From IMG/VR virus record IMGVR_UViG_3300035670_001415, positions 1 through 21,127 of that record: 21,127 nt of DNA. One strand, 5' to 3'. A program made the translations under genes and the position numbers. Origin of the DNA: a virus. How positions within the stretch are numbered: the stretch's first letter is position 1; each line of letters begins with the position of its first letter. Under the pieces are notes generated by a model. That model worked only from the letters and a program-made list of their open reading frames with translations, was not told where the DNA came from and did no database searches. This document shows, in pieces, positions 3,756 through 16,006 of this stretch.

Positions 3756-5180
3756 ATGAAGGCACTGGAACTGCTGCGCGCCGAGCGCGAGAAGCTCGAA
3801 GAGCAGCGCACCGCCGCCGTCGAGGCGATGGAGGCCGTCGCCACCGCCGCCCTCGACGAGACCCGATCCCTGAGCACCGAGGACGACGCCGAGATCGCCG
3901 GCCGTCAGGCCGAGGTCGTCGAGCTGGACGAGAAGCTGTCCGCGCTCGACGCCCGCGAGGCCGAGCTCGTCGCCATCGAGGAGCGGACCGCCGAGCGCGC
4001 CACCCGGCCCTCGCTGCAGGTGATCTCGAAGCCCGAGCCGACCGACGTCTACAACGACCGCAGCGCCACCCCGCAGCAGGTCGCCGACGCCGTCACCCGG
4101 AGCCTCGAGCCGAAAGTCGAGCGCCCCGAGGACATGGCGCACGTCCGCAAGCTCGTGCTGCGCCACCGCTCCGACACCGCATGGGCGCGCGAGCTGATCG
4201 CCCGCTCGAGCGACGTGTACGAGTCGGCGTGGGGCAAGGTCGTCACCGGTCGCGAGTTCCAGCTGACCCCCGAGGAGCGCACCGCGCTCTCCACGGTCAC
4301 GAACGCGAACGGCAACTTCCTCGTGCCGACGCACCTCGACCCGACGGTGATCCTCTCCAACGACGGCAGCTCCAACTCCGTCCGGGCGATCTCCCGGGTC
4401 GTCACCCTCACCCGCCCCGGCGACACCTCCTGGCAGGGCATCACGTCGGCCGGCGTCACCGCCAGCTTCGACGCCCAGCTCACCGAGGTCTCGGACGACA
4501 GCCCGACCTTCGAGCAGCCGTCGATCCCGGTGCACAAGGCGCAGGCGTTCGTGATGGCGTCGATCGAGGCGGCCGAGGACATCGCCGGTCTCCAGACCGA
4601 GATCCTCGCCATGTTCGCCGACTCCCGCGACCGCCTCGAGGGCGCAGCCCACGCGACGGGTTCGGGCACGAACCAGCCGACCGGTGTGTTCACGGCGCTC
4701 GACGCGAACACGAACGTCGAGATCGTGTCGGACACGGCGGCGGCGATCTTCAAGGAGGACCTTGACGAGGTCTACCGCTCGGTCCCGGTCCGATACCGGA
4801 GCCGGTCGTCCTGGCTCATGCACCCGATCTGGGCGCTGGAGATCCAGAACCTCGGCAGCGCAGTGAGCAACAAGTTCACCACCGAGCTGACGCAGGGCAC
4901 GGCGACGCAGCTCTACGGCCGGCCGGTCGTCGAGTCCGACGACGCCCCGTCGACCACCACGACCACCGTCCGGGACAACCGGATCGTCTTCGGTGACTTC
5001 CAGAACTACGTCATCGTCGACAAGCCCGGCAGCTTCGCCGTCGAGTACATCCCCCAGATGTTCAACACGGCGAACAACCTGCCGGACGGCCGGCGCGGCT
5101 GGTACGCCTACTGGCGGACCGGCGCCGACGTCGTGGTCGACACGGCGTTCCGCCTCCTCCAGGACAAGACCTCGGCCTGA
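3756..5180 (+). CDS. HK97-fold major capsid protein with N-terminal delta (scaffold) domain
   Basis: This is the main shell protein, 474 residues. Residues 1-85 form a highly charged, Glu/Ala/Leu-rich coiled coil (LLRAEREKLEEQR, then VVELDEKLSALDAREAEL), typical of the delta domain that acts as an internal scaffold and is removed by the protease. A linker and helical stretch follow. The capsid fold is recognisable from about residue 184 (NGNFLVPTHLDP), through GDTSWQGIT and FEQPSIPVHKA, to the AEDIAGLQTEIL spine helix and the GTNQPTGVF loop. The ending NLPDGRRGWYAYWRTGADVVV is of the type seen in this family. AGAGG at 3744-3748 gives a good ribosome binding site seven bases before ATG 3756. 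The length after delta removal would be somewhat under 400 residues. It is followed by a strong RNA hairpin, which may set it apart from downstream expression. Confidence 0.94.
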   Translation: MKALELLRAEREKLEEQRTAAVEAMEAVATAALDETRSLSTEDDAEIAGRQAEVVELDEKLSALDAREAELVAIEERTAERATRPSLQVISKPEPTDVYNDRSATPQQVADAVTRSLEPKVERPEDMAHVRKLVLRHRSDTAWARELIARSSDVYESAWGKVVTGREFQLTPEERTALSTVTNANGNFLVPTHLDPTVILSNDGSSNSVRAISRVVTLTRPGDTSWQGITSAGVTASFDAQLTEVSDDSPTFEQPSIPVHKAQAFVMASIEAAEDIAGLQTEILAMFADSRDRLEGAAHATGSGTNQPTGVFTALDANTNVEIVSDTAAAIFKEDLDEVYRSVPVRYRSRSSWLMHPIWALEIQNLGSAVSNKFTTELTQGTATQLYGRPVVESDDAPSTTTTTVRDNRIVFGDFQNYVIVDKPGSFAVEYIPQMFNTANNLPDGRRGWYAYWRTGADVVVDTAFRLLQDKTSA

Positions 5181-5275: not shown

Positions 5276-5464
5276 GTGTCGAAGGTGCACGCGACGCGCA
5301 CGTGTGTCGTCACCCACAACGGGGTGCCAGTGCTCGTGCGCGAGGACCAGGCGTTCGATCGCGACGACCCGCTGGTGCGGGACTTCGCGTGGCTGTTCGC
5401 TGCGGACGTGGAGGAAGCAACCGCTCGCCCCGGCGAACGGCGCTCCACCAGGCGTAAGTCGTGA
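5276..5464 (+). CDS. Small post-capsid protein of unknown function
   Basis: This gene encodes 62 residues. It starts at GTG 5276 with AAGGGAG at 5263-5269 as ribosome binding site. The N-terminal half looks like a small beta-rich unit (CVVTHNGVPVLVREDQAFD). It is followed by an acidic, aromatic stretch (PLVRDFAWLFAADVEE) and a strongly basic end (RRSTRRKS). Short proteins with this kind of pattern often follow the capsid gene in actinophages; I know of no proven role, though a capsid decoration or head-completion function is possible. Its TGA overlaps the GTG of the first glycosyltransferase (GTGA at 5461-5464), so it heads the sugar-transfer cluster as a transcription and translation unit. 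Confidence 0.7.
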   Translation: MSKVHATRTCVVTHNGVPVLVREDQAFDRDDPLVRDFAWLFAADVEEATARPGERRSTRRKS

Positions 5465-6222
5465 AGCGCGACCGCGTCATCTTCGGCTACCTGCACCCGG
5501 GCCACGAGTCGCACTGCTTCTCGGCGTCGGTGCGAGAGCTGTTGTTCTACGACGCAGCCCACGGTCAGCACCTGGTCTCGCACCCGTTCGGTGTGGCGCC
5601 GAAGGAGACTGGCGCAGCGCACATCCACGCCGGTCGCAACGAACTGGCGCGCATCACCGTCGAACAGGACGCCGCCGACTGGCTGCTCATGATCGACGCT
5701 GACATGGGTTTCGCCCCGGACGTCGTCGAGCGACTGCTCGCAGCGGCCGACCCGGTGAAACGGCCGATCGTCGGCGGGCTCGCGTTCGCGCAGAAGTCCG
5801 ACGGCCCCGGCCCGTTGTACGCCCGCCGCTACCGGTGCGTCCCGACGCTGTACCGGATGCACGAAACCGACGACGAGGTCGGCTTCGTTCCGCTGTTCGA
5901 CTACCCACGGGACCAGCTGGTCGAAGTCGACGCCACCGGCGCCGCCTGCGTGCTGATCCACCGGCGGGTCTTCGAGTCGATCCAGACGACGTCGCCGTTC
6001 CGACCGTTCGACCAGGTGATCGTGCCGAAGGGCCCGACCGGCCGGACCGAGTTCGGCGAGGACCTGTCGTTCTGCCTGCGAGCCAAGGCCGCCGGCGAAG
6101 GGTTCCCGATTCACGTCGACACCAGCGTGAAGACCACTCACGACAAGGGCGCTGTGTTCCTGGACGAGGAGACCTACGACCTGCAACAGGCGATGATGGC
6201 GCTCCGAGGGCTCGCAGCGTGA
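5461..6222 (+). CDS. GT-A fold glycosyltransferase (family 2-like)
   Basis: This protein is predicted to move a sugar from a nucleotide donor to an unknown acceptor in the cytoplasm. The 253-residue sequence has an N-terminal nucleotide-binding alpha/beta region, and HIHAGRNELARI before WLLMIDADMGF, whose DAD (residues 79-81) matches the metal-binding DxD motif. Next is VDATGAACVLIHRRVF, a strand-helix segment typical of GT2-like proteins. FGEDLSFCLRAKAAG near residue 200 supplies the ED usually taken as catalytic base, and HVDTSVKTTHDKG supplies a late metal-ligand-type His. There is no membrane segment. It starts at GTG 5461, overlapping the previous stop, and ends overlapping the membrane protein start in the same GTGA way. 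Enzyme class is well supported; donor and acceptor are not visible. Confidence 0.85.
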   Translation: MKRDRVIFGYLHPGHESHCFSASVRELLFYDAAHGQHLVSHPFGVAPKETGAAHIHAGRNELARITVEQDAADWLLMIDADMGFAPDVVERLLAAADPVKRPIVGGLAFAQKSDGPGPLYARRYRCVPTLYRMHETDDEVGFVPLFDYPRDQLVEVDATGAACVLIHRRVFESIQTTSPFRPFDQVIVPKGPTGRTEFGEDLSFCLRAKAAGEGFPIHVDTSVKTTHDKGAVFLDEETYDLQQAMMALRGLAA

Positions 6223-7052
6223 TCGTCGTTCGACCCGGTCCCGACGCCGCCCGCTACCTGCTGGCCGGTGACGGCAACCCGGTGGCGTTCCCGTTCAACG
6301 TGCGGTGGCTGCTGCCGTCGGTGTGTGGCAGCGACCTCGCAGCGTGGTGGGTTGTGTGGGGGCTGTCGTGGCCGGTGCTCGGCGTCTCGGTTGCTCTGTG
6401 GGCGCGTGGCCTGGACGCCTCGTGGCCGGTCTCGATCGCCGCTGCGGTGCTCGTGCTGGCGCTGCCGGGGGTGATGCAGCCGCAGTCGACGTGGCCGGTC
6501 GGGGTCGACCTTCCGGCGATGGCGATGTCGGCTGCCTCGGCTGCCTGCTTCGTGCATGGCAACTGGCTCCTCGCCCTCGTGTTCGCCGTCTGGGCCGTCG
6601 CGATCAAGGAACAGTCGCCAGTCTGGATCGCACTGTGGGTGTGGTCGCCGTGGCCGCTGGTCGTCCTGCCGCTGGCGCTGATCGCCTACCTGGTGCGCAG
6701 GCCGGAGATCGACCCGATCACTGCGACGCCGCTGCTGCGCCGGGTGCACGATCATCCGGTCCGCTCAGCGTTCGAGCATCGTGCGCAGGCCGGTGGCTGG
6801 CGCAACTTCTGGCTCATGGTGGCACCGTGGTCGGTGGGTGTGGCGGCGCTGCTGGAGCCGTCGTGGCAGCTCCTGGCGGCGCTCGCAGTCGGCTACGCAG
6901 CGTTGCTCGTGGCGACCGACACGGTGCGGGTCTACCAGCCGCCGGCTGCGCCTGTGGTGGCGCTCGCAGCGTGCAGCGTGATCCCTGAGAGCTGGCTACC
7001 GCTGGCGCTGCTGCCGGCCGTCTTCTTCTGGCGTCCACCGGTGACCGGGTGA
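6219..7052 (+). CDS. Polytopic membrane protein resembling a GT-C glycosyltransferase
   Basis: The 277-residue protein is very rich in Trp, Leu, Val and Ala, with about eight or nine membrane-length segments (roughly 40-62, 69-88, 96-112, 115-130, 134-159, 197-212, 217-233, 243-256, 257-271). The N-terminal 35 residues (DAARYLLAGDGNPVAFPF, then RWLLP) look like the first external loop of GT-C enzymes. WAVAIKEQSPV (KE at 130-131) and TDTVRVYQPPAAPVVALA near 233-250 also echo that superfamily. GT-C enzymes use lipid-linked sugar donors. The usual first membrane helix and its acidic catalytic loop are not obvious, so it may be shortened, or may be a transporter or anchor instead. It lies between two GT-A genes, with GTGA at 6219-6222 and 7049-7052. 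The membrane assignment is secure; the GT-C assignment is inference. Confidence 0.75.
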   Translation: MIVVRPGPDAARYLLAGDGNPVAFPFNVRWLLPSVCGSDLAAWWVVWGLSWPVLGVSVALWARGLDASWPVSIAAAVLVLALPGVMQPQSTWPVGVDLPAMAMSAASAACFVHGNWLLALVFAVWAVAIKEQSPVWIALWVWSPWPLVVLPLALIAYLVRRPEIDPITATPLLRRVHDHPVRSAFEHRAQAGGWRNFWLMVAPWSVGVAALLEPSWQLLAALAVGYAALLVATDTVRVYQPPAAPVVALAACSVIPESWLPLALLPAVFFWRPPVTG

Positions 7053-7591
7053 TGACGTCGCTCTCGATCGTCATCCCGACCATCGGCCGGGACACCCTGG
7101 AACGCGCCGACCGGTCGGCGTGTCGATGCGCTCAACGTGTCATTCGTGTCGCCGACGACTGCCCCGAGGTGCCAGCCGAGGTCCACGGCCAGTTCGGTGC
7201 GGCCGGCCTCGCCCGCAACGCCGGCCTTGACCTGGTCGACACGACGTTCGTCGGGTTCCTCGACGACGACGACGAGCTCGTCCCCGACGTCTACCGACGG
7301 GTGCTCGAGGGCAACGCAGACGCCGACCTGATCCTGCACACCGCCTGGCACCCGCAGCTCGGCCCGATCCCCCGACCCGGGTGGCTCACCGAGTTCGCCA
7401 ACACGACGATCGCGATGACGGTGCGCACCTCGGTACTGCGGTCACTCGGTGGTTTCGTCGCCGGGTTCCCGTTCACCTTCAAGGGTGAGGACTTCGAGTT
7501 GTTCCGCCGTTTCGTCGACCACGGGCGTGCCGTCGTGGCATCCCCCGAGGTCGCCTACCTGATCCGCCCCGAGGAGATCGACAGACGATGA
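7052..7591 (+). CDS. Compact GT2-family glycosyltransferase
   Basis: The 179-residue protein starts with LSIVIPTIGR, the classic first strand of GT2 enzymes. ARNAGLDLV follows, then VGFLDDDDELVP around residues 68-78, which carries the DxD-type acidic cluster for the metal and nucleotide-sugar. FKGEDFELFRRFVDHG (GED about 145-147) supplies the base and acceptor-side helix. The catalytic domain is complete in outline but small, with little beyond the core; GT2 proteins commonly have 220 or more residues. It is soluble by composition. ATG 7052 shares one base with the preceding stop; GTG 7049 would add one residue and cannot be excluded. It ends with ATGA at 7588-7591, overlapping the head-tail connector gene, so sugar transfer and head completion are translated in series. 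The acceptor is unknown. Confidence 0.85.
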   Translation: MTSLSIVIPTIGRDTLERADRSACRCAQRVIRVADDCPEVPAEVHGQFGAAGLARNAGLDLVDTTFVGFLDDDDELVPDVYRRVLEGNADADLILHTAWHPQLGPIPRPGWLTEFANTTIAMTVRTSVLRSLGGFVAGFPFTFKGEDFELFRRFVDHGRAVVASPEVAYLIRPEEIDRR

Positions 7592-8220
7592 GCATCTCCA
7601 ACGGGTACCTGACGATCGAGGAGGCGGTCAGCTACGTCGGCCGCAACGAATCCCGGGACACCTACGAGCTCGAGGACGTGGTGACCGCTGCGTCGCGGAT
7701 GGTCGACCGGCACTGCGGGCGGCACTTCTACCAGGCGTCCGCCGACGCCCGGGAGTTCGACGTCGACTCCGACGGCTACACGGTGACGTTCGGGGCGTTC
7801 AACGACCTCGTGTCGGTCACGTCCGTCGCCTACGACAACAACGACGACGGCGTGTACGAGTCGACCCTGACCGCTTCGCAGTACCAGCTGCTCGCACCGG
7901 TGCAGGGCCAAGCCCCGGGGACGTGGCCGTACACGCAGCTGCGCAACGTCACCTCGACGCTGCTGCCGTCGCCGCCGACGGCGTCCGGCCGTGAGCGTCT
8001 GATCCGCATCACGGGCACGTGGGGCTGGCCGGCGGTCCCGCCCGAGGTGAAGCAGGCGACACGCATCCTCGTCGCCGAACTGGCGAAGCTGCAGGACGCC
8101 CCGCTCATGGTCGCGGGCTTCTCGGAGTTCGGCGTGGTGCGGGTGTCGTCGTCGATGCCAGCCCGGGCCCGACAGCTGCTCCAGCCGTTCCGCCACCCCG
8201 ACAACGTGGGACTCGCCTGA
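7588..8220 (+). CDS. Head-tail connector/adaptor protein (HK97 gp6-like)
   Basis: This protein probably forms the ring below the portal that starts the neck. The 210-residue product begins with YLTIEEAVSYVG, a helix common to gp6-like adaptors. Next comes the pattern LEDVVTAASRMVDRHCGRHF, in which a helix leads to an aromatic-bearing RHF turn. A beta-rich middle (FDVDSDGYTVTFG, ITGTWGWPAVPPEVKQA) is followed by a final helix bundle. The ITGTWGWPAVPPEV segment and the helix after it are characteristic of this adaptor family. ATG 7588 overlaps the glycosyltransferase stop. Its TGA shares a base with the next ATG at 8220. The position between capsid and tail genes agrees with the role. In many phages this gene follows the capsid gene almost directly; here a glycosyltransferase cluster separates them. 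Confidence 0.85.
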   Translation: MSISNGYLTIEEAVSYVGRNESRDTYELEDVVTAASRMVDRHCGRHFYQASADAREFDVDSDGYTVTFGAFNDLVSVTSVAYDNNDDGVYESTLTASQYQLLAPVQGQAPGTWPYTQLRNVTSTLLPSPPTASGRERLIRITGTWGWPAVPPEVKQATRILVAELAKLQDAPLMVAGFSEFGVVRVSSSMPARARQLLQPFRHPDNVGLA

Positions 8221-8621
8221 TGGCCGCGACGCTCGGCGAGGTCCGCACCGCGCTGGCCTCCGCACTTGAGGACGCCTACCCCGGCTGGAACGTCTACCGG
8301 CTCCCACCGGAGACCGTCGAGGTCCCGGCGTTCGTCATCACCGGCTTCTCGGTCGTGCCGCAGGCCGCCGCCCGGGTCGACATGGCAGAGGCCGAGGTGA
8401 ACGTTCTGGTCTCGCACCGACACGTCGACCAGGTCGAACTCCTCGACGAGGTCCTGTCCCCTGGCGCCGACGGGTCGGTCTGGTCCTGCGTTGAGGCCGA
8501 CCCGTCGCTCGGCGGAGTGGTGTCGTCAACGGTCGTGACCGACGCCGGCAACTACCAGGCGACGACGGTCGCCGACGTCGCCTACTACGCCGCAGCGTTC
8601 AGCGTTCAGGTGATGCTCTGA
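8220..8621 (+). CDS. Neck or tail-terminator-like protein
   Basis: The 133-residue protein opens with a helix (TLGEVRTALASALEDAYPG) and then WNVYRLPPETVEVPAFVI. This is the helix, Tyr and Pro-Pro layout seen in small neck proteins that actinophage annotators call tail terminator or head-tail joining protein. The rest is beta-rich, with alternating Val and polar residues, and ends on the strand AAFSVQVML. It starts at ATG 8220 in a TGATG junction with the connector and ends in another TGATG with the next gene at 8621. Such proteins cap the tail tube at the head-proximal end. Order and pattern support a neck role, but which neck component it is remains uncertain. Confidence 0.75.
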   Translation: MAATLGEVRTALASALEDAYPGWNVYRLPPETVEVPAFVITGFSVVPQAAARVDMAEAEVNVLVSHRHVDQVELLDEVLSPGADGSVWSCVEADPSLGGVVSSTVVTDAGNYQATTVADVAYYAAAFSVQVML

Positions 8622-9208
8622 TGGGTCGCTCCTCGTCGCCGGCGGAACTGATCCGCAAGATCGAGGACACGACCGGCATGGCCGGTAAGAACAACAAGCG
8701 GGCGATCAAAAACGCCGCCGTGACGTTCAAGCAGGTCGGCCTGCGGATGCTCGCCGAGGAGGTCGGCTCCGACCTGCAGCTGTCGCACTGGCGGTACCGC
8801 AACGGCCAGTACATCCCACTGAAGCTCAACATCGGCTTCGAGCTCGAAGGCGAGCGGGACGTCAAGGCGATCATCCGACCCCGACCGTGGCCCCGGTGGG
8901 CTCGGGTCTCCGGCCCCTGGTACATGCTCGAGTTCGGCGCACAGCCCCACCGGATCGTGCCGAAGCCTTCACGGGTGAAGCGTCAGACACGCGACAAGGG
9001 CGCGAACACGAAGCGGGTCGGCGGCAGCCGGCGCCTCGTGTACCCGCCGGCGTTGCGGCTCGGCAACGGCCAGATGCGCTACGGCGTCAACCATCCCGGC
9101 ACCCGGCCGACGCGCCTGTGGTCACGCATCGGACGCGAGGCGAAGCGTCCTGCGTGGGAGCGGTACCGCCTGCAGATGGCGCGCGAGACGGTCAAGCGGT
9201 TCCAGTGA
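8621..9208 (+). CDS. HK97 gp10-like tail completion/neck protein
   Basis: The 195-residue, strongly basic protein has a helical start (ELIRKIEDTTGM), a long helix with FKQVGLRMLAEEVGSD, a beta section, and GPWYMLEFGAQPHRIVPK near residues 98-115. That last segment resembles the conserved EFG..PH segment of HK97 gp10-type morphogenesis proteins. A Lys/Arg-rich loop follows (residues 120-140), and then GVNHPGTRPTRLW, which recalls the HPGT-containing ending seen in this group. These proteins act at head-tail joining or tail completion. ATG 8621 overlaps the preceding TGA. The stop at 9206-9208 overlaps the GTG of the GT-B glycosyltransferase. The basic loop could contact DNA or acidic partners, but this is conjecture. 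Confidence 0.8.
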   Translation: MGRSSSPAELIRKIEDTTGMAGKNNKRAIKNAAVTFKQVGLRMLAEEVGSDLQLSHWRYRNGQYIPLKLNIGFELEGERDVKAIIRPRPWPRWARVSGPWYMLEFGAQPHRIVPKPSRVKRQTRDKGANTKRVGGSRRLVYPPALRLGNGQMRYGVNHPGTRPTRLWSRIGREAKRPAWERYRLQMARETVKRFQ

Positions 9209-10206
9209 GAGCCATCGTCGTCGGGCCGCTGGCGGCCTACTCGGTGGCCGACGTCGCCGCCGGCTGGGTGGACGGACTGCGCGAGGTCGGCGTCGACACG
9301 GCGTACTTCGACCTGTCGCTGCAGCTCGGCTACTTCCTCGCCGCCGAGGTGCGCGGCGAGACGATGACGGCGACGCAGGCCCGACAGGCGGTCACGTACA
9401 ACCTGCTCGCCGAGTGTTACCTGCTGCGACCCGACGTCGTGGTGATCGTCACCGGCAACGACCTCGACTACGAGCTCGCCGCCCGCATCGACGCGAAGAA
9501 GGTGCTCGTCCTCACCGAGTGCCCCTACGAGCTCGAAGGCCAGGCGCAGGCGTGCGCAGCGATCGAACCGGACCTGATCCTCGTCAACGACCCGCAGGGC
9601 GCCGAGGTGTACAGCCAGTTCGCCCCGACGTTCTACCTGCCGCACGCCTACCGGCCCGAGGTACACACACCGGGCAACTGGCGGCGGGACCTCGACTGCC
9701 TGTTCGTCGGCACCGGGTTCCCGAACCGGATCGAGTGGATCGCCTCGGCCGACTGGTCCGGGGTCGACCTGCACCTCGCCGGGATGTGGAAGGGCCTCGA
9801 CGACGCCCACCCGTTGCGCCGCTGCGTCCTCGACGTCGGCGTCGACGGCTGCACCGACAACGCCACCGAGACCGTGCCGCTCTACCAGCGGGCGGTCACC
9901 ACGTTCAACGTCTACCGGACCGACAGCTACGGGTCCCACAGCCACGCCGACGGCGTGGCGATCTCACCCCGCGAGGTCGAGGCCGTCATGTGCGGGGTGT
10001 GGCTGTCACGAGACCCCCGTCCTGAGGGCGACGAGGTCCTGTCGATGTTCCCGACGTTCACCTCGCCCGACGAGATGGTCGACCAGGTGCGCTGGGCGCT
10101 CGCCCATCCCGACGAGCGCGACGCCGCCGTCGAAGCCGGACGGGCGGCGCTCGCCGACCGGACGTTCGCCAACCACGCAGCCCGGGTTCTCGCCCGGCTG
10201 TTCTGA
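9205..10206 (+). CDS. GT-B fold glycosyltransferase, CgeB-like
   Basis: The 333-residue cytoplasmic protein has two Rossmann-like halves. The N-terminal half starts RAIVVGPLAAYSVADVAAGW, with a helix after the first strand as in GT-B enzymes; DVVVIVTGNDLDYEL and KKVLVLTECPYE continue the sheet. The C-terminal half holds DLDCLFVGTGFPNRIEWI and FNVYRTDSYGSHSH. SPREVEAVMCGVWLSRDP (about 254-271) is the donor-binding Glu motif of the CgeB-type group. It ends with an FTSPDEMVDQVRWALAHPDER-type helix and TFANHAARVL, also usual there. GTG 9205 overlaps the previous stop (GTGA). It separates the neck genes from the tail tube gene, which has its own strong ribosome binding site. A sugar-transfer role is well supported by fold; the tube protein or other virion proteins as acceptors are only a guess. 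Confidence 0.85.
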   Translation: MRAIVVGPLAAYSVADVAAGWVDGLREVGVDTAYFDLSLQLGYFLAAEVRGETMTATQARQAVTYNLLAECYLLRPDVVVIVTGNDLDYELAARIDAKKVLVLTECPYELEGQAQACAAIEPDLILVNDPQGAEVYSQFAPTFYLPHAYRPEVHTPGNWRRDLDCLFVGTGFPNRIEWIASADWSGVDLHLAGMWKGLDDAHPLRRCVLDVGVDGCTDNATETVPLYQRAVTTFNVYRTDSYGSHSHADGVAISPREVEAVMCGVWLSRDPRPEGDEVLSMFPTFTSPDEMVDQVRWALAHPDERDAAVEAGRAALADRTFANHAARVLARLF

Positions 10207-10233: not shown

Positions 10234-10668
10234 ATGGCAACCAACGCAATCCACGGCCGCTTCGGTGCGCTGCTGGTCGACCAGTCGGCCGCTGCCAACG
10301 GGTCGGCATCACAGCTGGGCAACCTGTCCGACTGGTCGATCGACGGCCAGCGCGACCAGGTCGAGGTCTCGGTCCTCGGCGAGAACGTCAAGACCTACGT
10401 CGCCGGCATGTCCGACTTCACCGGGACGCTGAACGGCGTGCTCAACACGGCGTCCAACGGGATCTACACCGTCGCCGACGGGATCGCCCGGACCTTCTAC
10501 CTGTACGTCGACAACACCGACGCCACGTCCAAGTCCCCGGTCCCGACCGGGAAGGGCTACTGGTACGGGCAGGCGCTGTTCAACGGCGTCTCCACCCAGG
10601 GCGGCGTCGGCGACGCCGTGAAGTGGACGATCAACTGGTCCGCCGCCACCAGCATCTACCGGGTCTGA
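10234..10668 (+). CDS. Major tail tube protein
   Basis: The 144-residue protein has beta-rich, Gly/Ser/Thr-rich composition throughout, and its length and position fit a tail tube subunit. Notable segments are GRFGALLVDQSAAANGSA near the start, DWSIDGQRDQVEVSVLGE, FTGTLNGVL and the final WTINWSAATSIYRV. A pattern of an early strand naming the reference state, a DGQRD-type loop and an FxGTL strand is common in actinophage tube proteins. Tube subunits stack in rings around the tape measure. A strong ribosome binding site (GGAGG at 10221-10225, eight bases before ATG 10234) and a free 27-base leader set it apart from the coupled genes around it, consistent with a need for many copies. It sits directly before the chaperone and tape measure genes. 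Confidence 0.88.
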   Translation: MATNAIHGRFGALLVDQSAAANGSASQLGNLSDWSIDGQRDQVEVSVLGENVKTYVAGMSDFTGTLNGVLNTASNGIYTVADGIARTFYLYVDNTDATSKSPVPTGKGYWYGQALFNGVSTQGGVGDAVKWTINWSAATSIYRV

Positions 10669-13691: not shown

Positions 13692-14173
13692 TGGCCGGTC
13701 TGACGTGGACGACGACGGCCGGGGACCTGACCATCGGCGGCGTCGCGATGAACTGCGCCGGCTGGAAGCTGACCGGCGACTCGCTGATGCGCCTGTGGAT
13801 GCCAGCGCCCCAACGTGGCGACGACCGGATCGTGCCTGGCGCGTCGGGTGTCGTCGCGTTGCAGCGACGCAACACGTCACGTGCGGTGTCCCTGGACCTG
13901 CTGATCTCCGGTCTGGCCGACCGCAACGGGGTCGCAGCGACCGGCAGCTACGCCGCCCAGCTCTACACGAACATTGTCTACCTGCGCGACAACGTGGTCG
14001 CACCGACCGGCACCGGCGACGGCACCCGGTCCGCAGTGTTGACGATCCCGGGGGGCACCACGTTGACCGAGCCGGTGCACGTGCTGTCCCTTGAGACCGG
14101 TGAGGTGTCGCTCGACGGACGATGGGTGCGTGCCGTGCTCGGCATCAGCATCCCCAGCGGGAGGATTCAGTAA
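13691..14173 (+). CDS. Dit-like distal tail/minor tail protein
   Basis: The 160-residue protein follows the tape measure directly, the usual place of the distal tail (Dit) ring. It begins with short strands (LTWTTTAGDLTIGG, CAGWKLTG) and has a central RIVPGASGVVALQRR. This resembles the conserved loop found in actinophage proteins at this position, where an Arg-Val-Ile-Pro-Gly segment precedes an Arg-rich strand. SLDLLISGLADRNG and LYTNIVYLRDNVV then give the strand-helix pattern. The C-terminal part is a beta domain with LTIPGGTTL. It probably joins the tube to the hub. ATG 13691 shares a base with the tape measure stop; GTG 13688 is an alternative adding one residue. It ends in TAA, overlapping the next ATG by one base. 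Confidence 0.75.
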   Translation: MAGLTWTTTAGDLTIGGVAMNCAGWKLTGDSLMRLWMPAPQRGDDRIVPGASGVVALQRRNTSRAVSLDLLISGLADRNGVAATGSYAAQLYTNIVYLRDNVVAPTGTGDGTRSAVLTIPGGTTLTEPVHVLSLETGEVSLDGRWVRAVLGISIPSGRIQ

Positions 14174-14574
14174 TGGCCAATGCGCTCTATCCGAAGGGGA
14201 AGAAGGCGCTCCTCGACGGGGACATCGACCTGCTGAACGACACGATCAAGATCGTCCTGTGCGACTCGGGCTACACGTACTCGACGGCGCACGACAACCT
14301 GGACGACATCGGCGCATCGGCGCGTGTGGCGACCTCGAGCGCACTGGCCTCCAAGACCACGACCGATGGGGCCTTCGACGCCGCCGACGTGACCTACACG
14401 GCGCTCACCGGCGACACGGTGACCTCGTGGGTCCTGTTCAAGGACTCCGGCACCGAGTCGACCAGCACGCTCATCGGCTACTTCGACACGAAGTCAGACG
14501 CCTCGGCGCTGTCCTACACGCCGAACGGGTCGAACCTGACGCTCGTCTTCGGGTCGTCGATCTTCACGATCTGA
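14173..14574 (+). CDS. Small minor tail/baseplate-associated protein
   Basis: The 133-residue protein is from a group I recognise by pattern in many phage tail regions: an opening of the type ALYPKGKKALLDGDIDLLND, then TIKIVLCDSGYTYS, ASARVATSSALASKTTTDG and DVTYTALTGDTVTS. These resemble proteins that start with a residue block followed by IDWLNDTIKV and then a Gly/Thr-rich beta unit. Their function is not established; they are generally listed as minor tail proteins and may be part of the tip. ATG 14173 shares a base with the previous TAA, and GGGAGGA at 14159-14165 is a good ribosome binding site. An upstream in-frame start at 14122 would lie inside the previous gene and is less likely. 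Confidence 0.75.
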   Translation: MANALYPKGKKALLDGDIDLLNDTIKIVLCDSGYTYSTAHDNLDDIGASARVATSSALASKTTTDGAFDAADVTYTALTGDTVTSWVLFKDSGTESTSTLIGYFDTKSDASALSYTPNGSNLTLVFGSSIFTI

Positions 14575-14581
14575 GCCTGTC

Positions 14582-16006
14582 ATGGCCACCGAGACCTTCA
14601 GCGCACTGACAGGCAGCGGTGGTCCGGTCGCCTTCACGACCTCGTCGTCGGCTTCGACGCTCACCTTCGACACGCTGCAGTCACCGGCGCAGGCGCGTGG
14701 CTTCGATGTGACGGTGCCGCAGGCTGCGTTCACGCCGGCGAAGCTGCTGGTCGAGGCGTGGTCGGCCGACAACCTGACGTTCTTGGGATCGCTGGACGAG
14801 TCCTACGGCCGGTCGTTTCAGGACGAGCTGTCCGGCATGGGTCGTGGCCAGGCCAGCGTGCTGTCTTCGTCGGCCAACGCTTCGATCGACGCACGGGTGC
14901 TGCGCTTTAAGGTGGCGACACCCGGCCAGCTGGCCACCACCGGCGGTTCGTATGCGTTCGCCAGCCGGGTCGAGTCCAAGCAGTGGCGTTATGACCAAGG
15001 TGAGGAGTCGTCGCGTGGCTTCACTCTGACCGGCCGGGGTCTCGTCTCGGCCTGGGAGGATGCGATCGTCTTCCCTTACGGCGGCACCGGCGCTCGGCCG
15101 ACCTCGGACAGTCGGGCGTTCGGTTGGTTCTCACCTGAGCTGTCGACGACCGGCTGGCAGTCGGCGGTTGTGGGTGTGTCGGGTCTTGCACCCAACACCA
15201 GGACGGTGCCGCCGCTGCCGGACCCTTGGTTCCCGCCGAAGGGTTGGACCTCGGTCCTGACCGGCACCGACTGGATCTGGAGCCGGGCGACGAACAGCGG
15301 CAACCCTGAGGGTGCGTCGCTGTTCCGCACGACGTTCAGTCTCGCCAGCGCTGATCGGGTGGCGATCTTCTACACGGCCTCCTCGAGGTGCCGGGTCTGG
15401 GTCGACGGTGTGCTGGTCACGCCGGGCTGGACCTCGGAGCCGAATGAGGAGAGCTTCATCCATTCACATCGAGCCACTCCTATGCTGTCCGCAGGCACGC
15501 ACTACATCGCCGTGGAGGCCGAGTCCCGAGCGTGGACGCCGACCCTGCCGGGCGTGTCACGAGGCATCCTGCAGGTGGCGGTGCACTCGGGTGGCGGTGC
15601 CGGTGCGGTCTACTCGTCGGCGAACCTGCTGGTCGGCACCAGTTCCTCGTGGAAGTGCTTGGACTACCCGACGGTGTATCCGGCACCGACGCCCGGCCGC
15701 ATCCTGCGGGCCTTGCTCGAGGAGGCGCAGGCACGTGGTGCGCTCACGAGCTGGGCGCTCGGCTGCACCGACACGGTCGACTCTGCCGGCCAGCCGTGGC
15801 CGAACGACCAGGCGCACGTGTTCCGGGTCGGCCAGACCTACGCCGACGTGTTGCGTCAGATGGCCGACACGTCCATCGAGTTCGCTGCACGTCCGGCCGG
15901 GTTGGTCCTCGACGTATGGCGGCGGGACACGATCACGCAGCGGAACGCTGCGACGTTCACGATCGGGTCGAACCTCACCGAGCTCGAGGAGGACCAGCCC
16001 CGATGA
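14582..16006 (+). CDS. Tail hub protein, N-terminal part (ReqiPepy6 Gp37-like), with inserted beta-sandwich
   Basis: The 474-residue protein is the first part of what in related phages is one hub protein at the tail tip. Residues 1-165 form a beta-rich start with the hub-type segment EESSRGFTLTGRGLVSAWED. Residues about 178-355 look like an extra domain: WSRATNSGNPEGASLFRTTF, RVAIFYTASSRCRVWVDGVL and TPMLSAGTHYIAVEAES follow the strand order of sugar-binding jelly-roll (PA14/rhamnosidase N-terminal-like) domains. From 370, PGRILRALLEEAQARGAL and GQTYADVLRQMADTSIEF match the Gp37-like hub. The family normally continues after TIGSNLTELEED, but here a TGA ends the gene at 16004-16006 and the rest continues in the next gene. 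Eight bases separate it from the preceding stop at 14574. Confidence 0.82.
   Translation: MATETFSALTGSGGPVAFTTSSSASTLTFDTLQSPAQARGFDVTVPQAAFTPAKLLVEAWSADNLTFLGSLDESYGRSFQDELSGMGRGQASVLSSSANASIDARVLRFKVATPGQLATTGGSYAFASRVESKQWRYDQGEESSRGFTLTGRGLVSAWEDAIVFPYGGTGARPTSDSRAFGWFSPELSTTGWQSAVVGVSGLAPNTRTVPPLPDPWFPPKGWTSVLTGTDWIWSRATNSGNPEGASLFRTTFSLASADRVAIFYTASSRCRVWVDGVLVTPGWTSEPNEESFIHSHRATPMLSAGTHYIAVEAESRAWTPTLPGVSRGILQVAVHSGGGAGAVYSSANLLVGTSSSWKCLDYPTVYPAPTPGRILRALLEEAQARGALTSWALGCTDTVDSAGQPWPNDQAHVFRVGQTYADVLRQMADTSIEFAARPAGLVLDVWRRDTITQRNAATFTIGSNLTELEEDQPR

Follow-up and report, generated by a model that had tools for sequence, protein, structure and literature searches.

What are four genes of the sugar-transfer type doing among the head and tail genes of a phage, and which molecules would their products modify? 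The question is raised by a virus record from IMG/VR, analysed here over its complete length of 21,127 bases (hereafter the window), which represents a fragment of a phage genome. As judged by open reading frames and family searches, its late block is of the siphophage type. Genes for TerL, portal, S78 protease and HK97-type capsid are followed by one for a 62-aa connector-like protein and by three denoted GTA, GTC and GT2; then come the head-tail adaptor, the tail terminator, a protein at the gp10 position, the fourth enzyme (CgeB), the tail tube, a short protein at the chaperone position, the tape measure and tail proteins, with the tape measure assigned by position and length, and gp10 likewise. 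The features discussed below are:

3756..5180, plus strand: major capsid protein, HK97 type (PF05065, 122 bits; PHROG major head protein)
5276..5464, plus strand: 62-aa connector-like protein in the capsid-GTA interval (phrog_9538, E 2.5e-4; its stop overlaps the GTA start by 4 bases)
5461..6222, plus strand: GTA, predicted GT-A-fold, GT2-like sugar transferase, 253 aa (AlphaFold2 model, structural neighbours, phrog_34859)
6219..7052, plus strand: GTC, predicted minimal GT-C-fold membrane protein without the first membrane helix (TM1), 277 aa (AlphaFold2 model, VIA-align)
7049..7591, plus strand: GT2, compact GT2-family protein, 180 aa (PF00535 in the window and a relative, PDB profile; alternative start ATG at 7052)
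7588..8220, plus strand: head-tail adaptor (phrog_442, E 6e-25)
8220..8621, plus strand: tail terminator (phrog_17840, E 2e-18)
8621..9208, plus strand: neck/tail protein at the HK97-gp10 position (by position; no significant family match in Pfam and PHROG searches)
9205..10206, plus strand: CgeB-like GT-B protein, 333 aa (PF13524)
10234..10668, plus strand: tail tube (major tail) protein (phrog_10528, E 4e-7)

The original prediction had placed four glycosyltransferase (GT)-type genes of three folds within a head-tail operon and had described them as interleaved with virion genes through overlapping stops and starts. All four reading frames are found at these places, with predicted folds for GTA and GTC and Pfam matches for GT2 and CgeB. 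Overlaps of 4 bases with the preceding gene occur at 5461, 6219, 7049 and 7588, and by the ORF coordinates the CgeB start at 9205 overlaps the upstream stop by 4 bases as well, so that such an overlap lies upstream of each of the four.

Structure prediction, which had been proposed as a check, was run for GTA and GTC and returned a GT-A and a GT-C fold, respectively. The AlphaFold2 model of GTA, calculated from a 16-sequence alignment (pLDDT 84, pTM 0.86), gives 108 Foldseek matches at E≤0.001, the top rows being mostly GT-A enzymes, and VIA-align Z scores of up to 19. Its fold neighbours comprise LH3, COLGALT1, Mnn9, GlfT2, pp-GalNAc transferases, STIV A197 and a chlorovirus capsid GT. The DxD metal motif (D79xD81) and the acidic ED motif (E200-D201) are invariant in the 16 sequences, the glycosyltransferase family phrog_34859 is matched with an E value of 3e-19, and the model is devoid of membrane helices. 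In terms of its predicted structure, GTA is a GT-A-fold protein of the GT2-like type. A sequence-profile search of the PDB with GTA gave weak or no matches, and tblastn against phage genomes gave only matches of 22–25% identity. The cultured Planktophila phage E7 was considered as a model and rejected; its GTA-like gene (about 24% identity) lies among repetitive genes resembling those of tail fibres, with no recognised capsid gene adjoining.

The assignments of GT2 and CgeB are based on Pfam. The window GT2 scores 22.8 bits against PF00535, just under the cut-off of 23.3, and a relative in contig L020 (51% identical) scores 37.1 bits, well above it. The GT2 profile matches GTs in the PDB, and D72-D75 as well as E147-D148 are invariant among the homologues. 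CgeB reaches 43.0 bits against Glyco_trans_1_2 (PF13524, cut-off 25) and its counterpart in L009 56.5 bits. Searches with CgeB gave weak or no matches by sequence profile in the PDB and none by tblastn in phage genomes; an NCBIfam search yielded weak matches only.

For GTC (pLDDT 79, pTM 0.82), Foldseek gives zero matches at E≤0.001. After VIA realignment 33 GT-C chains top the list with Z scores from 15.2 to 6.5, followed by the next unrelated row at 4.4. The best match is Pmt4 (Z 15.2, 252 residues, 4.2 Å); others are AglB, OST, ArnT, AftD, PglB, ALG12, Emb, AftB and PimE. Because helical bundles can reach Z scores of up to 13 by chance, the fold call rests on all 33 top rows being GT-C enzymes and on the gap below them. 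As modelled, GTC has the GT-C transmembrane fold. Its residue 1 or 2 aligns directly after TM1 of the GT-C enzymes, and since this helix is missing, GTC is classed as a GT-C-fold variant. Invariant residues are D9, D97, K130-E131 and R237. By the start offsets of the alignments, assumed to be ungapped, D9 occupies the position of ArnT D55 and Pmt1 D77, which we take to be the known catalytic Asp; judged by this alignment, D9 is a catalytic-type Asp in the first extracytoplasmic loop.

A TM1 hidden by the annotated starts was ruled out, as an in-frame hydrophobic segment upstream of the start motif was found in 0 of 101 GTC-family ORFs. One GTC relative was detected among 84,980 bacterial and archaeal species, namely in Microtetraspora glauca (37% identity), where the gene has chromosomal-looking surroundings and TM1 is apparently present. 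With the window GTC, a sequence-profile search of the PDB gave weak or no matches and tblastn against phage genomes none, and tblastn with a GTC relative gave one distant match, in phage GX15bay. This gene (L194, 182-1045), the only GTC relative found in the annotated phage collection, lies outside the head block of a genome that also carries several annotated glycosyltransferases and glycoside hydrolases. A GT-C family without the first membrane helix is new here, and its more than 100 members on phage contigs provide a natural test of the role of this helix and of the directions in which a GT-C can face.

A megablast of the window against 50,697 phage genomes gave zero matches. Viral contigs scanned with GTA, GTC and CgeB queries yielded about 160 loci after removal of most duplicates, and the counts given here are of contigs found through their GT genes, with close relatives partly uncollapsed, and do not amount to a phage survey. 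Of 91 contigs, 85 have GTA as the first gene that could be recognised past the capsid (median gap 117 bases), and the adjoining capsids are of at least two unlike types as judged by their C-termini. In 104 of 105 contigs the gene that follows CgeB encodes the tail tube, at a median distance of 19.5 bases; contigs of more than 100 kb are among them. The layout in two places, as originally predicted, is kept in very divergent phages. The GT cassette, modular and set among the virion genes, is thus real and conserved. By sequence comparison, the grouping of GTA, GTC and CgeB is not due to chance, as their order recurs in dozens of diverged phage contigs; the conserved gene addresses of GTA and CgeB are new here.

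The remaining positions are more variable. The upstream partner of GTC, in 84 contigs, is GTA (71), a methyltransferase following GTA (7) or TerL (6); the contigs in which GTC abuts TerL instead of following capsid and GTA are L096, L099, L101, L104, L111 and L114. Downstream of GTC the next recognised gene is most often a methyltransferase (34) or GT2 (26), and enzymes of the Methyltransf_23/24 type are found in relatives both in the GT2 slot and in the slot before GTC. The window itself yielded no methyltransferase; many relatives have one. Capsid-to-tail arrays read GTA-GTC-methyltransferase-CgeB (23), GTA-GTC-GT2-CgeB (8), GTA-GTC only (6), GTA-Methyltransf_24-GTC-GT2-CgeB (5) and GTA-methyltransferase-CgeB without GTC (5), besides others. 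A search for the same gene set in relatives accordingly recovers GTA, GTC and CgeB in order, with the four-gene set of the window as one of several cassette versions. The proposal of one multi-step pathway of four enzymes did not hold: CgeB is found without GTC and GTC without CgeB, a methyltransferase often replaces GT2, and six spanning contigs have GTA and GTC only. A division into two arms, whose tailoring enzymes can be exchanged, describes the cassette better. In L011, GTA carries a second, fused domain of the GT2 type and a TOD1/MUCI70-like gene is also present, and L136 has an extra GT gene (Glyco_tranf_2_5). In L142 (1332-6489), L136 (233-6693) and L160 (1687-7507), several kb of extra genes separate the capsid/GT genes from the adaptor or from CgeB; among them are a Methyltransf_24, a Glyco_tranf_2_5 and genes for long proteins, possibly decorations.

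GTC has a history of its own. At four-fold degenerate sites it is 76–81% identical between the window and L019, L020, L023 and L026, and in the other genes the same type of site is about 32–71%, mostly 35–58%, identical. In L019 and L020 the similarity tract starts and stops at the ends of the GTC gene. Since the high similarity between these diverged phages is confined to GTC, it was passed on as a single gene; the four contigs were found via GTC similarity, which shows that such exchange happens and not how often. Towards L003, a stretch of lowered identity begins within the capsid gene, crosses the 62-aa gene, runs into GTA and then ends. In L005 an apparent recombination breakpoint lies at the GTC/GT2 junction (about 7050-7171), with GTC 95% identical to the window and the start of GT2 about 64%. 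The tail proteins at 14122 and 14582 (window 14122-16006) are unusually similar (about 65–86%) across phages whose other structural proteins often share 30–60% identity, a pattern that, like that of GTC, suggests exchange of host-linked genes.

Pairwise distances were compared for co-variation, uncorrected for phylogeny, so that linkage alone could produce the following correlations. CgeB distances correlate with those of the tail tube at rho 0.70 and of the tail terminator at 0.48; the partial rho is 0.62 for the tail tube (given adaptor and terminator) versus 0.08 for the terminator, and for the 27 loci at which CgeB directly adjoins both of these genes the values are 0.56 and 0.41. GTA distances show rho 0.71 with the capsid and 0.68 with the protease, the half-sample interval of the difference including zero; co-variation of GTA and capsid beyond linkage was rejected as inseparable from that of GTA and protease.

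Taken together, we somewhat favour a reading in which these genes make up a modular cassette, expressed late, for glycosylation of the virion, one arm of which serves the capsid and the other the tail tube. The soluble GTA would add a sugar from host nucleotide-sugars to the capsid or another head protein; GTC, employing a lipid-linked donor, and then GT2 or a methyltransferase would extend or decorate the capsid-arm glycan, and CgeB would glycosylate the major tail protein encoded directly downstream. The overlapping starts and stops would keep GT synthesis in step with the acceptors. Enzyme activity, time of expression, donors, acceptors, the order of steps and the place of GTC in the pathway are what we infer here. 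Ser/Thr residues often lie close to the capsid C-terminus, yet the same holds for relatives without GTs, so that no acceptor site can be named from them; the C-termini of capsid and tail tube were rejected as acceptor signatures because they do not discriminate. Sugar donors would come from the host, as a scan of a few downstream proteins in a near-identical 30 kb contig (G001) brought up no recognisable sugar-nucleotide gene. This contig carries a CHAP lysin and a WhiB gene, the latter suggesting an actinobacterial host, and the hosts of this virus group are probably actinobacteria. A weak match to the C-terminal domain of Wadjet JetD (18.8 bits, cut-off 22) was noted at L047 9779-10972 (G001 22778-23971).

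The membrane enzyme is the least comfortable part of this scheme. A lipid-linked precursor handled by it had been foreseen, with which the GT-C fold is consistent; the outward active site and the missing first helix had been overlooked. The active site of a GT-C enzyme normally points out of the cell, on the side opposite to the capsids in the cytoplasm, and unassembled capsid protein is not present outside the membrane. An outward-facing GTC is at odds with action on these capsids; for that, it would have to be inverted. Hand-summed by the positive-inside rule, the loops carry about 6 K/R on the side of the active site and about 10 on the opposite side, which mildly favours the canonical outward orientation. 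That loss of TM1 has flipped GTC, so that a cytoplasm-facing active site glycosylates head proteins from an inner-leaflet lipid-linked sugar, appears quite unlikely.

The main rival is accordingly modification of the host envelope, at least by GTC, which we regard as possible though rather unlikely. Late in infection, an outward-facing GTC supplied with a lipid-linked sugar would alter a glycan on the host surface, in the manner of Gtr systems, so as to mask receptors, exclude superinfection or prevent progeny from binding to debris; in a mixed version GTC alone acts on the envelope and the soluble GTs modify the virion. The fold matches of GTC to the cell-wall enzymes AftD, Emb, AftB and PimE, the surplus of K/R on those loops which the canonical topology places in the cytoplasm, and its single-gene swaps between strongly diverged phages and position after TerL in six contigs, as might be expected of a host-linked gene, all point this way. 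However, GTC follows GTA, directly or via a methyltransferase, in 78 of 84 contigs, the GTA model is without the C-terminal membrane helices of GtrB, no GtrA-like flippase or membrane-anchored GtrB was seen among the scanned proteins of the window, itself a genome fragment, and the tube-side CgeB is left unexplained.

The very rigid positions beside capsid and tube genes might also fit proteins that resemble GTs in fold but transfer no sugar, and that serve in virion assembly or as structural components. This is very unlikely, as catalytic-type residues are invariant in GTA, GTC and GT2, the swaps of GT2 and methyltransferase and the additional GTs (the GT fusion and TOD1-like gene of L011, Glyco_tranf_2_5 of L136) point to chemistry, and the related phages Sbash and Eyre manage without annotated GTs in the head-tail block. 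Glycosylation of hypermodified phage DNA, ascribed to some phage GTs in passages of PMC12619734 citing Pyle 2024 and proposed as a role for freshwater actinophage glycosyltransferases (PMC10202952), is extremely improbable here, since the GT genes keep company with virion genes rather than nucleotide genes, a scan of a few further ORFs of the 30 kb relative revealed no gene for base modification, and such a role offers no obvious task for a membrane GT-C.

If the virion-glycosylation reading is true, such modification would be common in uncultured phages, beyond a few mycobacteriophages, and the assignment of acceptors would be directly testable because each enzyme is encoded beside its own. 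Glycans on the particle would affect phage adsorption, stability and antibody recognition.

Compared with known systems, the window resembles Gtr serotype-conversion cassettes in combining a GT2-type with a GT-C-type membrane enzyme in a phage genome, and differs in its virion-operon location and the presence of CgeB, and in that neither a flippase nor a membrane-anchored GtrB was seen. With the GT-C superfamily (ArnT, PMT, STT3/PglB/AglB, AftD, PimE) GTC shares the predicted fold across about 230–254 of its 277 residues and an invariant Asp in the first loop, whereas its family is without the first membrane helix, short and almost phage-exclusive. Chlorovirus PBCV-1 likewise encodes GTs that act on the major capsid protein, the presumed target here, and an A64R-type GT structure is among the neighbours of GTA, but it is a eukaryotic virus with an unrelated capsid and gene set. 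The cultured relatives Sbash and Eyre have about 42%-identical capsids and no annotated GTs in the head-tail block.

The closest parallel in kind is found in mycobacteriophages. Passages of PMC12363180, PMC11600133 and PMC12619734 that cite Freeman et al. 2023 report glycosylation of capsid and tail tube in Che8, Corndog and Myrna, and those in PMC11600133 and PMC12363180 describe several phage GTs and a methyltransferase as making the glycosylated virions. Several phage GTs, methyltransferase partners (here in relatives), actinobacterial hosts (here probable) and, as proposed here, capsid and tail tube as targets are common to both; the methyltransferases in the slots of relatives give an enzyme mix as in Che8. 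Che8 gp108 is a fusion of GT2 and a TylF-type methyltransferase, gp109 is GT2-like and gp110 belongs to GT25. Profiles of GTA, GTC and CgeB gave no match to Che8 gp108-110, and the window GT2 profile matches only the generic GT2 domain of gp108. Unlike in the window, the GT genes of Che8 are located at the extreme right of the genome, at a distance from those for the virion. Judged by these profiles, the GT set is like that of Che8 and Corndog in kind and unrelated in sequence to that of Che8 except for a generic GT2 domain, and it is placed differently, within the virion genes themselves.
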